From: an uncultured Anaerolineae bacterium
GTDB taxonomy: Bacteria; Chloroflexota; Anaerolineae; Anaerolineales; Villigracilaceae
Direction: 5' to 3'
DNA length: 39,277 nucleotides
Assembly: GCA_937120535.1 (NCBI GenBank)
Contig: CAKZJX010000073.1
Coordinates: forward strand, 1-39,277
Below, piece by piece: positions 1,551 through 5,287 of this stretch. The stretch's first letter is position 1. Each line of letters opens with the position of its first letter. The notes beneath the pieces are model-generated. The model saw nothing but the letters and a program-made list of their open reading frames with translations. It was not told where the DNA came from and did not search any database. The position numbers were made by a program, and so were the translations under genes.

Positions 1551-1562
1551 AAAGAGGTGAAT

Positions 1563-2510
1563 ATGAAACGCTGGCTTTCTCTGCTCCTTATCTCTATCCT
1601 GTGGCTAACCGCTTGTACAAGCGCTTCGCCCACGCCTGAAGCTCGACTGACCGTTGTGGCAACCACGTCGATCGTCACTGATGTTGTCCGTCAGATCGGT
1701 GGCGAGCATGTTCAGGTGATTTCTCTGCTGCCAGTTGGCGCTGATCCTCACACCTTTGAGCCACGCCCGCAAGACCTCACCCTGGTGGCCAATGCCCAAC
1801 AAATATTTGTTAACGGCGCCGGCCTAGAAGCCCATCTCCTCCCCCTGCTAGAAAGCGCCGGAGCCATGGAGAAAGTGATCGAAGTCTCCGAGGGCATTCC
1901 CCTGCTTCCTATGGAAGAGGTGATCGAGCATCATCATGAAGAAGAGGAAGAAGGGGCAGAAGATCACCATCATCACCATCATCTCGGCGGCGATCCCCAC
2001 ACCTGGACGGACCCGAACAACGTTCTCCTCTGGACGGAAAACATCGCTTCAGCCTTGGCGGCTGCTGACCCCGCTCATGCGTCAACCTACCGTCAGAACG
2101 CCGCTACTTACCAGGACCAGTTGCGCGAACTCGACGGCTGGATTCGCGAACAAGTGGCTCAGGTGCCAGCCGAGAACCGGCTGTTGGTATTAGACCATGC
2201 CGTTTTGGGCTACTTTGCCGAGGAATATGGCTTCCGCCAGCTAGGGGCCATCCTCCCCTCCTTTAGCACTGAGGCTGCTCCTTCGGCACAGGAACTTGCT
2301 GATCTGGTCGAACGCATTCGCTCCTTAGGAGTGAAAGCGATTTTCATCAGCGAAACCGCCCATATCCCTCTCGCTAGCCGAGTTGCTGAAGAGAGCGGCG
2401 TTAAACTCGTTATGATCTATCACGACCTGAGTCCGGCCGATGGCCCGGCCCCCGATTATTTGTCCTATATGCGCTATAATGTCCGCACTATCGTGGAAGC
2501 CCTGCGATAA
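1563..2510 (+). CDS. znuA: Zinc ABC transporter substrate-binding lipoprotein ZnuA
   Basis: A 315-residue cluster A-I metal-binding protein. The N-terminus is a lipoprotein signal (MKRWLSLLLISILWL with lipobox LTAC near residue 18), so it is lipid-anchored outside the membrane. Metal-ligand motifs are in place: VGADPHTFEP near residue 60, GGDPHTWTDPNN near residue 145, and LVLDHAVLGYFAEEYG near residue 210. Between the first two lies an acidic and His-rich loop (EHHHEEEEEGAEDHHHHHH, about residues 119-140), the feature that separates zinc binders from manganese binders. ATG 1563 is preceded by GAGGTG at the right distance; an upstream in-frame GTG at 1557 is part of that site. It delivers Zn2+ to ZnuB/ZnuC encoded next. 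Confidence 0.93.
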   Translation: MKRWLSLLLISILWLTACTSASPTPEARLTVVATTSIVTDVVRQIGGEHVQVISLLPVGADPHTFEPRPQDLTLVANAQQIFVNGAGLEAHLLPLLESAGAMEKVIEVSEGIPLLPMEEVIEHHHEEEEEGAEDHHHHHHLGGDPHTWTDPNNVLLWTENIASALAAADPAHASTYRQNAATYQDQLRELDGWIREQVAQVPAENRLLVLDHAVLGYFAEEYGFRQLGAILPSFSTEAAPSAQELADLVERIRSLGVKAIFISETAHIPLASRVAEESGVKLVMIYHDLSPADGPAPDYLSYMRYNVRTIVEALR

Positions 2511-2520
2511 CCCTTTCCTG

Positions 2521-3348
2521 ATGTGGAAACCGTCTGTGGCGTACTTACACACTCAACATGCGCACGATCAACCGATTCTAGATGTCCTCCATCTGTCCTT
2601 CCGTTACGACAGCTTAACGGCATTGGAGAATCTCACCTTTCACTTGCATGCCGGGGAACGAGTGGCAGTGGTTGGGCCGAACGGGGCCGGTAAGACCACC
2701 CTGTTCAAGATCGTGGTCGGCGTCCTACACCCTACCGAAGGGCAAGTGAAAGTGTATGGTTCCCGTCCTGATGGACATGTCTGCATCGGTTACGTCCCTC
2801 AGCGCAGCCAGGTAGATTGGCGCTTTCCGGTATCGGTAGCTGAGGTCGTTATGATGGGCCGGCTAGCCCAAATTGGCTTGTTTCGCTGGCCCCAAAAGCA
2901 GGATTGGCAAATCGTCCATAGCGCTCTAGAAACCGTGGGGCTAGTCGACTTGGCAAAGCGCCAGATCGGCGAACTCTCCGGCGGCCAACAGCAACGCATG
3001 TTCATCGCTCGCGCCCTGGCCCAAGAGGCCGAATTGATGCTCATGGACGAGCCACTCACCGGCCTTGATCTCCCCGCCCAAGAAAGTCTGCTTCACCTTC
3101 TAGGCGAATTACAGCAACGCGGCGTGACCATCATGGTCGCCATCCACGACCTTCAACAAGCCGCCCAACACTTCGATCGCATCCTGCTCCTCAACCGCCG
3201 CCTGATCGCCTTCGACATCCCGGAGCGGGTCTTGCAACCCCACATCCTTCAACGCGCCTACGCCGGCCAGCTTACCATTCTAGATGGCCAGATCGTCATC
3301 GATACCTGTTGTCAAGGAGACAAGCATGACGTTCGACTGGCTGCTTGA
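2521..3348 (+). CDS. znuC: Zinc ABC transporter ATP-binding protein ZnuC
   Basis: A 275-residue ABC ATPase starting 10 bases after znuA. Walker A GPNGAGKTT is near residue 54, Q-loop region YVPQRSQVDWRFPVSVAEVV, signature LSGGQQQR near residue 154, Walker B AELMLMDEPLTGLDL, and the H-loop histidine in MVAIHDL. The length and the VDWRFP segment are typical of Mn/Zn-type ABC ATPases. The start at ATG 2521 (MWKPSVAYLHTQHAHDQ) has no clear Shine-Dalgarno and adds a short His-rich lead; an internal GTG at 2536 is an alternative. Its end overlaps znuB by 23 bases. Confidence 0.9.
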   Translation: MWKPSVAYLHTQHAHDQPILDVLHLSFRYDSLTALENLTFHLHAGERVAVVGPNGAGKTTLFKIVVGVLHPTEGQVKVYGSRPDGHVCIGYVPQRSQVDWRFPVSVAEVVMMGRLAQIGLFRWPQKQDWQIVHSALETVGLVDLAKRQIGELSGGQQQRMFIARALAQEAELMLMDEPLTGLDLPAQESLLHLLGELQQRGVTIMVAIHDLQQAAQHFDRILLLNRRLIAFDIPERVLQPHILQRAYAGQLTILDGQIVIDTCCQGDKHDVRLAA

Positions 3349-4168
3349 ACCGCTTCGCTACGGCTTCATGGTGCGCGGCTTGATCGCTTCCCTGCTCACT
3401 GCCGTGGTGGGCGCAATCATCGGTTCCTACATGGTTCTGCGCGGCATGGCCTTCTTTGGCGACGCCCTAGCGCACACCATCTTACCCGGCGTAGCGATTG
3501 GCTATCTGGTTAGCGGTGAAAAGCGCGAATCCCTCTTCTGGTGGGCCTTGGGGACAGCGGTGTTGACCTCATTGGGCATTGGCGCCATCAGTCGCAGCGG
3601 ACGCCTTCGAGAAGACACCGCCATCGGAATCATCTTCGCCGGCATGTTTGCCCTAGGGATCGCTATCCTCTCCACGGTTCGTAGCTATGCTGTAGACTTG
3701 AGCCATTTTCTCTTCGGCGACGTGCTCAGCGTCAGCACTACGACACTGATCTGGATGGCGATCTTTAGCGCCTTGGTCCTGATCGTGGTCTTCCTTTTCT
3801 ACAAGGAATTCCTAGTGATCTCGTTCGATCCTGTCCTAGCTGCCACCCTACGGCTACCGGTATCCTTCTTCACCCACCTCCTCCTGGTCTTGATCGCCAT
3901 CACTGTGGCCATCTCTCTAAAGGCCGTTGGCGTCGCTCTAATGGTAGCTATGTTGATCACGCCGGCCGCAACAGCTTATCTGCTGGCGCGTCGCCTGTGG
4001 ATCATGATGCTTACTGCAGCCGGCCTCGGATCGTTCGCAGCCATCGTGGGCTTGTACCTGAGTTACTACTTCAACATTGCCTCTGGCGCCTCGATTGTCC
4101 TGACAGCCACCGCTATCTTCCTGATCGTATTCTTGCTTCACCCAAAGCAAGGCGCGCTTCACAAATAG
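3326..4168 (+). CDS. znuB: Zinc ABC transporter permease ZnuB
   Basis: A 280-residue ABC-3 family permease with about eight hydrophobic helices. The family signature near residue 30-60 is clear (GSYMVLRGMAFFGDALAHTILPGVAIGY), including the aspartate and histidine of the FFGDALAHT motif. Start ATG 3326 is preceded by AGGAG at 3316-3320, and it lies inside the end of znuC, so the two are translationally coupled. It forms the membrane channel of the ZnuABC complex. A split terminator follows the stop codon. Confidence 0.92.
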   Translation: MTFDWLLEPLRYGFMVRGLIASLLTAVVGAIIGSYMVLRGMAFFGDALAHTILPGVAIGYLVSGEKRESLFWWALGTAVLTSLGIGAISRSGRLREDTAIGIIFAGMFALGIAILSTVRSYAVDLSHFLFGDVLSVSTTTLIWMAIFSALVLIVVFLFYKEFLVISFDPVLAATLRLPVSFFTHLLLVLIAITVAISLKAVGVALMVAMLITPAATAYLLARRLWIMMLTAAGLGSFAAIVGLYLSYYFNIASGASIVLTATAIFLIVFLLHPKQGALHK

Positions 4169-4206
4169 CCCCTTGGGGTTAGCAGCAATGACGAGCCCGA
4201 CAGGGA

Positions 4207-4232
4207 AGGCAGAGCAACAGATAGCTCTGCCT
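4207..4232 (+). terminator. Intrinsic terminator of the znu operon, split by a MITE
   Basis: AGGCAGAGC (4207-4215) pairs perfectly over 9 bp with GCTCTGCCT (4224-4232) around an 8-base loop. The U-tract that should follow is not there: instead the MITE starts at 4233. Its 9-bp target duplicate (GCTCTGCCT, 4386-4394) is followed by TGTTTTTCTG, so the original order was hairpin plus T-run. The insertion duplicated exactly the 3' arm of the hairpin and moved the T-run 162 bases away. Confidence 0.75.
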
Positions 4233-4394
4233 GGGCTTGTTCAATAAGTACCCTTGACGCGTCCGGTAGAGCAGGCATGGGAGAGGATCAGCGATAATCA
4301 GCCGCCGATTCAGGGGTCAAACGGCCTGCTTGTGGCTCTTCTAGAGACAGTTCGCACCATCCAAAAAAACTTATTGAACAAGCCCGCTCTGCCT
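4224..4394. mobile_element. MITE copy 1 (4233-4385) with 9-bp target duplication
   Basis: A 153-bp non-coding element bounded by perfect 16-bp inverted repeats, GGGCTTGTTCAATAAG at 4233-4248 and its complement at 4370-4385. It is flanked by a perfect 9-bp direct repeat GCTCTGCCT (4224-4232 and 4386-4394). It carries no credible gene. A related copy lies at about 5034-5193. Nine-base duplications occur for instance in IS1- and IS4-type elements; the parent element is not in this window and I cannot name it. Confidence 0.88.
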
Positions 4395-4520
4395 TGTTTT
4401 TCTGCCTCTCTGATGAAAGGCGAATTCTTCCCATAACAAACGTTTCCACGTAAAATATCGTATGCGAACGCATTCATGCTCACCATGAACTCAGAACGCT
4501 CTTAGAGCGCGCCCTGAAAG
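4395..4520. other. Non-coding stretch between MITE copy 1 and the tRNA-Val terminator
   Basis: Apart from the displaced T-run of the znu terminator at 4395-4401 I see no gene, promoter pair or stable fold here. Confidence 0.5.
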
Positions 4521-4548
4521 CAAAAAGAAGCCTGATACCAGGCTTCTT
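4521..4548 (-). terminator. Intrinsic terminator of tRNA-Val
   Basis: Perfect 10-bp stem AAGAAGCCTG (4525-4534) and CAGGCTTCTT (4539-4548) with a 4-base loop. Read on the minus strand it ends in a run of five T. It lies about 6 bases past the CCA end of tRNA-Val. Confidence 0.85.
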
Positions 4549-4553
4549 TATTT

Positions 4554-4630
4554 TGGTGGGCGGAATAGGACTCGAACCTACGACCTCTGCGATGTCAACG
4601 CAGTGCTCTAACCAACTGAGCTATCCGCCC
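4554..4630 (-). tRNA. tRNA-Val (anticodon GAC), CCA end encoded
   Basis: The minus strand forms a class I tRNA: acceptor GGGCGGA/TCCGCCC, D-arm GCTCAGTTGGTTAGAGC, anticodon stem CTGCG/CGCAG with loop TTGACAT (anticodon GAC, codon GUC), T-arm GTAGGTTCGAGTCCTAT, discriminator A. The next three bases are CCA, so the 3' end is genome-encoded, unlike tRNA-Leu at 114-197. Own promoter upstream and terminator downstream make it a single-gene unit. Confidence 0.95.
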
Positions 4631-4643
4631 GAAAGGTGTATAG

Positions 4644-4672
4644 ATTATAACAATAGCATGGCATTTTGACAA
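4644..4672 (-). promoter_or_regulatory. Promoter of tRNA-Val
   Basis: Minus strand TTGTCA (4667-4672), 17-base spacer, perfect TATAAT (4644-4649), about 14 bases from the tRNA 5' end. Confidence 0.8.
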
Positions 4673-4680
4673 TCCCAATG

Positions 4681-5033
4681 GGCCTTGTTCAATAGGGAGT
4701 GGATAAAAAGGGGATTTTTTCACACCGAGACACAAAGACACGGGGAGGCTCTGTGGTCTACGTGTTGGGTTCCCATGCGACTCACGTTGCACGGCAGGGT
4801 GGAGGCCGGTTCCCAAGCACAGGCCGACCCCGAAGGGAAGAACGCCGAGTGAGGCCAGGATCTCGCTCGCCTGGCGCGACGCTCGCGCTGTTTTTCGCGT
4901 GGTCCAGAAGCCTGGAAGGCAGCCTGGAAGATTTTTCTGTACTGCTTCCACTGCCGTCCATGGCGCAAGCAGCGTTTTCCGAACTATCCCGCTCATGTGT
5001 TTCAGTTTATCAACCCATAATTTAGCCGCTCCC
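4681..5033. other. Non-coding stretch with MITE end fragment and degenerate repeats
   Basis: It begins with GGCCTTGTTCAATA (4681-4694), identical over 14 bp to the inverted right end of MITE copy 2 (5180-5193), so it is either a truncated MITE copy or the outer end of a larger 513-bp element. It is followed at 4721-4745 by CACACCGAGACACAAAGACA and similar low-complexity sequence. Open frames here have no protein-like character. No RNA fold that I recognise. Confidence 0.5.
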
Positions 5034-5193
5034 GTTCAATAAGCACCCTTGACGCGCACAAGGAGAGTCCGGTAGAGCAGGCATAGGAGGGGATCAGCGA
5101 TGGAATCAGTCGCCGATTCAAGGGTCAAACGGCCTTCTTATGGCTCTTCTAGAGAGAGTTCGTACCGTCCAAAGAGACTTATTGAACAAGGCC
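5034..5193. mobile_element. MITE copy 2, degenerate
   Basis: Collinear with the element at 4233-4385: shared blocks include CCGGTAGAGCAGGCAT, GGATCAGCGAT, GCCGATTCA-GGGTCAAACGGCC and GGCTCTTCTAGAGA. The inner inverted repeat GTTCAATAAG (5034-5043) pairs with CTTATTGAAC (5178-5187). The outer six bases of the left end have diverged, an 11-base insertion (GCACAAGGAGA) follows the left end, and no clean target duplication remains, so this copy is older than copy 1. Confidence 0.8.
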
Positions 5194-5287
5194 GCCGGTA
5201 ATGGTGCAGAGACGCTTTGAGTTATAGAAGGGCTTGGCTAATGGAATTTTGCCCGATGGATTTAAGAGTTTGGTGAGAGGGGAGAGG
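5194..5287. other. Short gap before the diguanylate cyclase stop codon
   Basis: No gene or strong signal seen. Confidence 0.4.

Follow-up and report, generated by a model that had tools for sequence, protein, structure and literature searches.

Several groups of bacterial mobile elements are already known to insert upstream of promoters. In PMC3942029, two groups of DDE elements are described as inserting upstream of sigmaA promoters at a fixed distance: TnGBS/ISLre2 (p-MULT 3), where 15-17 bp separate the element from the -35 box, and the ISKra4 group (p-MULT 4). All of these are Mutator-like, and their near-perfect inverted repeats are linked there with promoters on either side. ISTth7 is assigned to subgroup ISH1 of the IS5 family, with 8-bp repeats, in PMC6352166, which also describes an insertion in the argonaute gene of strain HB27E and links it with higher transformability; the word "promoter" is absent from its main text. 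In the literature searched, mostly outside subscription papers, we found no report of promoter targeting by ISTth7 or other IS5-type elements, and no mention of ISAae1.

Here we describe a MITE family from an uncultured Anaerolineae bacterium which, like the TnGBS/ISLre2 and ISKra4 elements as presented in PMC3942029, lies at a fixed distance upstream of predicted promoters, in this case of the sigma70 type. The spacing to the -35 box is 8 bp rather than the 15-17 bp given there for p-MULT 3, the duplication is 9 bp long, and the transposase fragment associated with the family is IS5-like, in contrast to the Mutator-like transposases of those groups (Mutator comparison by Pfam scan). Promoter targeting itself is thus already known from Mutator-like elements, and what is new here is the IS5-like transposase and the exact 8-bp spacing. 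The family resembles ISTth7 in its similar ends, its 9-bp duplications, the N8-TTGAC target rule, and a related transposase; it differs in that ISTth7 is a complete 1-kb element and belongs to another phylum. MITEAba12 is likewise a short bacterial MITE with 9-bp duplications, but according to PMC6382973 it carries its own outward promoters and its duplications show no sequence trend, whereas here the target supplies the promoter.

A MITE within the terminator behind znuB

The window, meaning the whole stretch of 39,277 nucleotides that was analyzed, contains a metal-transport operon followed by the insertion, a tRNA gene, and a second member of the same family. The relevant features are as follows.

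1557-2510, + strand: ZnuA-like gene (Pfam, NCBIfam)
2440-3348, + strand: ATPase open reading frame (Pfam, NCBIfam)
3284-4168, + strand: ABC-3 permease gene (Pfam, NCBIfam)
1557-4168, + strand: metal ABC transporter genes, full span (Pfam, NCBIfam)
4207-4232, + strand: terminator hairpin behind znuB, whole (sequence)
4207-4215, + strand: 5' arm of that hairpin, AGGCAGAGC (sequence, fold)
4224-4232, + strand: 3' arm of the hairpin, which is also the left copy of the 9-bp target duplication GCTCTGCCT (sequence, exact duplication)
4233-4385, + strand: MITE, 153 bp (repeat search, own-genome matches, consensus alignment)
4233-4249 and 4369-4385: 17-bp inverted repeats of the MITE (repeat search)
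4386-4394, + strand: right copy of the target duplication GCTCTGCCT, its final base being the first T of TTG (sequence)
4394-4401, + strand: TTGTTTTT, the former terminator T-run and source of the TTG of the target rule (sequence, flank count)
4524-4549, no strand assigned: predicted bidirectional terminator between the MITE and tRNA-Val (prediction, fold)
4554-4630, - strand: tRNA-Val (gac) (tRNA annotation)
4644-4672, - strand: predicted tRNA-Val promoter, TTGTCA-17-TATAAT (flank count, promoter prediction)
4681-5193, no strand assigned: 513-bp composite member of the MITE family (repeat search, flank comparison)
4695-5033, no strand assigned: a different repeat nested in the left end of the composite (sequence; copies elsewhere)

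The genes upstream of the insertion encode Fur-family, ZnuA-like, ABC ATPase, and ABC-3 permease proteins, all scoring over the Pfam cut-offs. A sequence-only reading of the window had called this a zinc operon, which is likely but stops short of proof, as the importer models do not separate zinc from manganese: the NCBIfam models shown fit importers of either metal, all of them scoring below their curated cut-offs.

That reading had also placed a MITE with a 9-bp duplication between the hairpin and the T-run of the terminator, and on this point direct reading of the sequence and the repeat search agree. The duplication GCTCTGCCT is exact on both sides of the element, and the T-run, TGTTTTTCTG, follows directly after its second copy. 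The hairpin is kept and the T-run is displaced by 162 bases, just as had been described. The element length of 153 bp also stood, while the terminal inverted repeats, given before as 16 bp, are in fact 17 bp long and perfect.

The predicted folding energy of the hairpin is -18.5 kcal/mol when the T-run is put back and -17.5 kcal/mol when the element end follows. As had been proposed, both 3' arms are available to its 5' arm, with nearly the same predicted energy in the filled transcript (-80.8 kcal/mol for proximal and -80.2 kcal/mol for distal pairing). There is some chance, though we hold it doubtful, that pairing with the distal 3' arm restores terminator function, the MITE being enclosed in an enlarged loop, and that nothing is lost; forced distal pairing costs 0.6 kcal/mol more than proximal pairing and stacks on the 17-bp stem before the T-run. 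The proximal hairpin (about -17.5 kcal/mol), however, would form first during transcription and would leave hardly any free bases for exchange. We consider instead that the original hairpin probably terminates less well and that the znu transcript probably ends at the second terminator (4524-4549), the hairpin of which, AAAGAAGCCTG-ATAC-CAGGCTTCTTT, has T-rich tails on both strands. Because this predicted terminator precedes the tRNA gene, antisense transcription of tRNA-Val by read-through, which had been put forward earlier, is unlikely.

The element has no match in the 60 relatives searched, which excludes an arrangement conserved in all relatives. No empty znu allele was found in any of 61 genomes either (pattern search with up to 3 mismatches), so that it is the duplication that points to a formerly empty site and the hope of finding the allele in relatives was not borne out. 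In 19 relatives, the first 110 bases 3' of znuB hold nothing resembling the window site by reading, and a scan of the loci of 8 relatives found no tRNA. A distant blastn search of window positions 4100-4700 against plasmids gave matches around the tRNA only, among the best 20 of 46 records.

The copy family and its target rule

A search of its own genome (3.11 Mb in 140 contigs) gave 44 matches to the element at E <= 1e-3, of which 43 span at least 125 bp; as 40 of 69 first-look candidates were scored, the count of 44 is perhaps a lower bound. A pattern of the element ends gave 47 forward and 51 reverse matches, and the reversed-pattern control gave 0 and 0. Given these copies and the empty control, the window element is not a product of chance. 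We took as full-length those 35 copies, from 53 alignment rows, in which both repeats were recognized and the length was 140-180 bp. Their consensus is 164 bp, to which the window copy is 95.4% identical and compared with which it is 11 bp shorter. The 9-bp duplication is exact in 8 of the 35 copies, the window copy among them, and has at most 2 mismatches in 12. Two of the six frames of the consensus are open throughout, but at 54 codons only, so no transposase is encoded. The family is thus short with inverted repeats, has target duplications and many copies, and lacks a transposase of its own, which are the attributes of a MITE. A number of contigs start inside family elements (for example, contigs 43, 48, 67, 70, 93, 118, and 136). 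Family repeats probably break the assembly, and autonomous copies may be hidden thereby.

To describe the flanks, we used 90 outer ends, which remain from the 106 element ends in the stretches examined once 16 lying opposite another copy are removed. Counting outward from the element, 34 of the 90 ends have a TTGAC with its first base at position 9; a further 6 have it at position 8 and 2 at position 10, which together makes 42 of 90, and every other single position has at most 1. About 0.09 TTGACs were expected per position, and the maximum at any position in 1,000 mononucleotide shuffles was 3. A -10 box, defined as at least 4 of 6 matches at 16-18 bp spacing, follows TTGAC at 34 of these 42 element ends, compared with 26 of 373 other TTGACs taken as background and 4 of 61 TTGACs outside open reading frames of 100 aa or more. 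At sites with enough sequence, a sense open reading frame of at least 100 aa begins 30-330 nt downstream in 25 of 40 and an antisense one in 1 of 40. By sequence, the motifs adjoining the elements are thus sigma70-type promoters, and the family inserts 8 bp on the upstream side of the -35 box.

By a hand count, TTGAC begins within positions 8-10 at one or both ends in 26 of the 35 full-length copies. The other nine lack it there at both ends; four of them, including the window copy, have TTG at these positions, and five have neither TTGAC nor TTG, two of these five belonging to tandem pairs. The promoter-facing end of the element may be either one (18 and 20 cases). The spacer is exactly 9 bp in all eight tandem junctions (contigs 11, 26, 35, 37, 38, 54, 65, and 93), as expected if insertion rebuilds its own target. 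The target is also one-sided: for insertions with duplications, the near side scores 4.2 of 5 (11 in the own genome) and 4.6 of 5 (19 of ISTth7) and the far side about 1.6, a contrast that is inflated because the better-matching side was defined as near and some far sides are tandem copies.

The flanks of 23 of the 35 full-length copies differ at 3 or more of the 9 bases. Among 4,005 end pairs, three on separate contigs (pairs 42/48, 42/82, and 67/73) carry exact halves of one duplication, compared with a chance value of about 0.015 (4^9), and a fourth split duplication joins two places on contig 54. Recombination between copies and assembly joining errors would both produce such splits. For 67/73, the second window element has a right flank that derives from another insertion; this flank, GCCGGTAAT at 5194-5202, beside the element at 4681-5193, is the exact partner of ATTACCGGC on contig 67.

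The left end of that second element lies 8 bp from TTGTCA, the -35 box of the predicted tRNA-Val promoter, and its 9-bp flanks are mismatched to each other. The repeat nested in it at 4695-5033 starts with GGGAGTGGATAAAAAGGGG, ends with CCGCTCCC, and is bordered by the 8-bp sequence GTTCAATA at 4687-4694 and 5034-5041. Because the 513-bp form is found again in full length on contigs 118 (97.7%) and 127 (95.0%), the composite appears to be mobile as a whole.

The right flank of the window MITE reads GCTCTGCC-TTGTTTTT, with the TTG at position 9 coming from the T-run and no good -10 box beyond it. The sequence-only reading had the placement of the element exactly right and missed the rule of the whole family, 8 bases and then TTG, which most often belongs to a -35 box. 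By that rule, the terminator would be a look-alike target and an exception for a promoter-targeting element. Because about 3.6% of random sites have TTG at a given position, the window site by itself is weak evidence, and it is the family rule rather than the single site that carries the look-alike reading.

The candidate transposase and the targets of ISTth7

We found no complete autonomous partner of the MITE in its own genome, and an autonomous element had no match in 60 relatives. On contig 105, however, an element end with the 16-bp family repeat, 8 bp from TTGACG, opens into a 141-aa transposase frame, which is cut off by the end of the contig such that its C-terminal part is absent. By tblastn, this fragment is 40% identical over 94% of its length to copies on Thermus plasmids (best E value 5e-10), and close relatives of those copies carry the ISTth7 annotation. 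The transposase of ISAae1, from Aquifex plasmid ece1, is 31% identical over the fragment. The fragment matches DDE_Tnp_1_5 at 18.9 bits, below the curated cut-off of 28.1, and the full-length ISTth7 and ISAae1 transposases pass the DDE_Tnp_1 cut-off. As judged from these sequence comparisons, the mobilizer of the MITE is probably an IS5-like transposase related to that of ISTth7; we infer that this group moved the MITE, as we infer the effect on transcription.

Relatives of the transposase occur in 3 of 400 Chloroflexota genomes, the own genome counted among them, and a scripted search of the loci of the other two for paired ends with a 9-bp repeat gave none. At loci L124-L128 (genomes G427 and G431), which are transposase relatives, 3 of the 5 matches have an in-frame TGA. 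Two contig scans for further relatives returned none in the first and 12 loci, all Thermus, in the second.

ISTth7 follows the same target rule. The set comprises 34 full insertions for which both ends and sufficient flanking sequence were present, each distinct flank pair being counted once; a single event may still be represented by several strains (the promoter is common to L134 and L176). Exact 9-bp duplications are present in 21 of the 34, as against the 8-bp length listed in PMC6352166. TTGAC is found in 19 insertions, at position 9 (17) or 10 (2) and at one end only; no insertion has it at both ends, other positions have at most 3, and 15 insertions have no TTGAC at positions 9-10. The preference is thus strong, not absolute. 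A -10 box is present at 11 of the 19 sites, compared with 7 of 124 other TTGACs. The one copy of ISAae1 seen reads AACCAAGGT-TTACA, its 9-bp duplication being followed by TTTACA, with TATACT beyond.

One ISTth7 jump, in a laboratory strain, can be followed directly. Plasmid pTT27 has four full copies in HB27 (NC_005838) and five in an HB27 derivative (NZ_CP144686), the extra copy sitting in the argonaute gene, where HB27 has the empty site. The two records agree fully as far as this site; in the filled record the shared sequence returns 1,038 bases later, with the duplication AAGCCCACG. On the other strand the target reads CGTGGGCT-TTGACG, which is the sole TTGAC on both strands within the 2,004 bp examined (chance of about 0.0005). 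The site is coding and has no good -10 box (2 of 6 matches), which shows that TTGAC alone can serve as a target. Selection may pick the argonaute gene, but hardly the exact position of insertion.

How the target may be chosen

What the sequences show directly is how the site is built, that the element has a copy family, that the rule holds both here and for ISTth7, and that one ISTth7 jump obeys it. We consider it highly probable that the MITE is of IS5 type, of the ISTth7/ISAae1 kind, that it targets N8-TTGAC, and that the TTG of the window T-run stood in for a -35 box. The element would be a non-autonomous relative of such an insertion sequence, the transposase of which would insert with a 9-bp stagger directly 5' of TTGAC. 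This would place copies 8 bp upstream of the TTG in sigma70-type -35 boxes, leaving the core promoter intact and rebuilding the target beside the new copy, where further copies could stack. In the window, use of the T-run TTG instead of a -35 box would have split the hairpin from its T-run by 162 nt, with weakened termination at the hairpin and a transcript stopped at 4524-4549.

The account that assumes least, and that agrees with the argonaute site, is that the transposase itself reads TTGAC. It is also possible, if rather unlikely, that the transposase is led to its site by a promoter complex (sigma factor or RNA polymerase) and that TTGAC matters only as a part of the promoter. The strong enrichment of -10 boxes at element ends and the one-sidedness of the target, inflated as that contrast is, would agree with such guidance; the argonaute and window sites, which have no -10 box, argue against it. 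The -10 enrichment of standing copies also fits help from sigma factor or polymerase, or better survival at promoters.

A scenario with insertion anywhere between genes and retention of promoter-adjacent copies by selection for changed expression appears improbable. Enrichment at promoter sites can arise when insertions in genes are lost to selection, which counts against a target rule, and the excess of -10 boxes over other intergenic TTGACs (34 of 42 versus 4 of 61) would be compatible with this. Selection does not, however, readily account for the fixed 8-base distance, for the same distance in ISTth7 of another phylum, or for the ISTth7 jump to the sole TTGAC of argonaute, which lies in coding sequence and has no -10 box. 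Least probable by far is recognition of terminator stem-loops with insertion between stem and T-run, which we rejected as a general rule because the recurring end motif is TTGAC with a -10 box, that is, a promoter, even though the window copy sits exactly between stem and T-run and a copy on contig 100 has a hairpin by eye beyond one end, its other end facing a promoter.

We think it likely that a branch of IS5-type elements, comprising the Chloroflexota-type family described here, ISTth7 of Thermus, and ISAae1 of Aquifex, has its own sigma70 promoter targeting apart from that of the Mutator-like TnGBS and ISKra4 elements, with a one-sided N8-TTGAC target rebuilt at each insertion. As each insertion would rebuild this target, promoters could collect tandem MITE arrays, and recombination between copies parked at promoters may reshuffle which DNA lies upstream of which promoter.

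The target rule would explain a MITE inside a terminator without any targeting of terminators. It also makes a question testable, namely, whether the transposase reads the -35 sequence itself or borrows a sigma factor, and as a tractable laboratory thermophile carries active ISTth7, insertions already known for it can be re-examined. A position just 5' of the -35 box spares genes and lands the element beside transcription. A second transposase family with its own exact spacing would make this placement a repeated solution among mobile elements.
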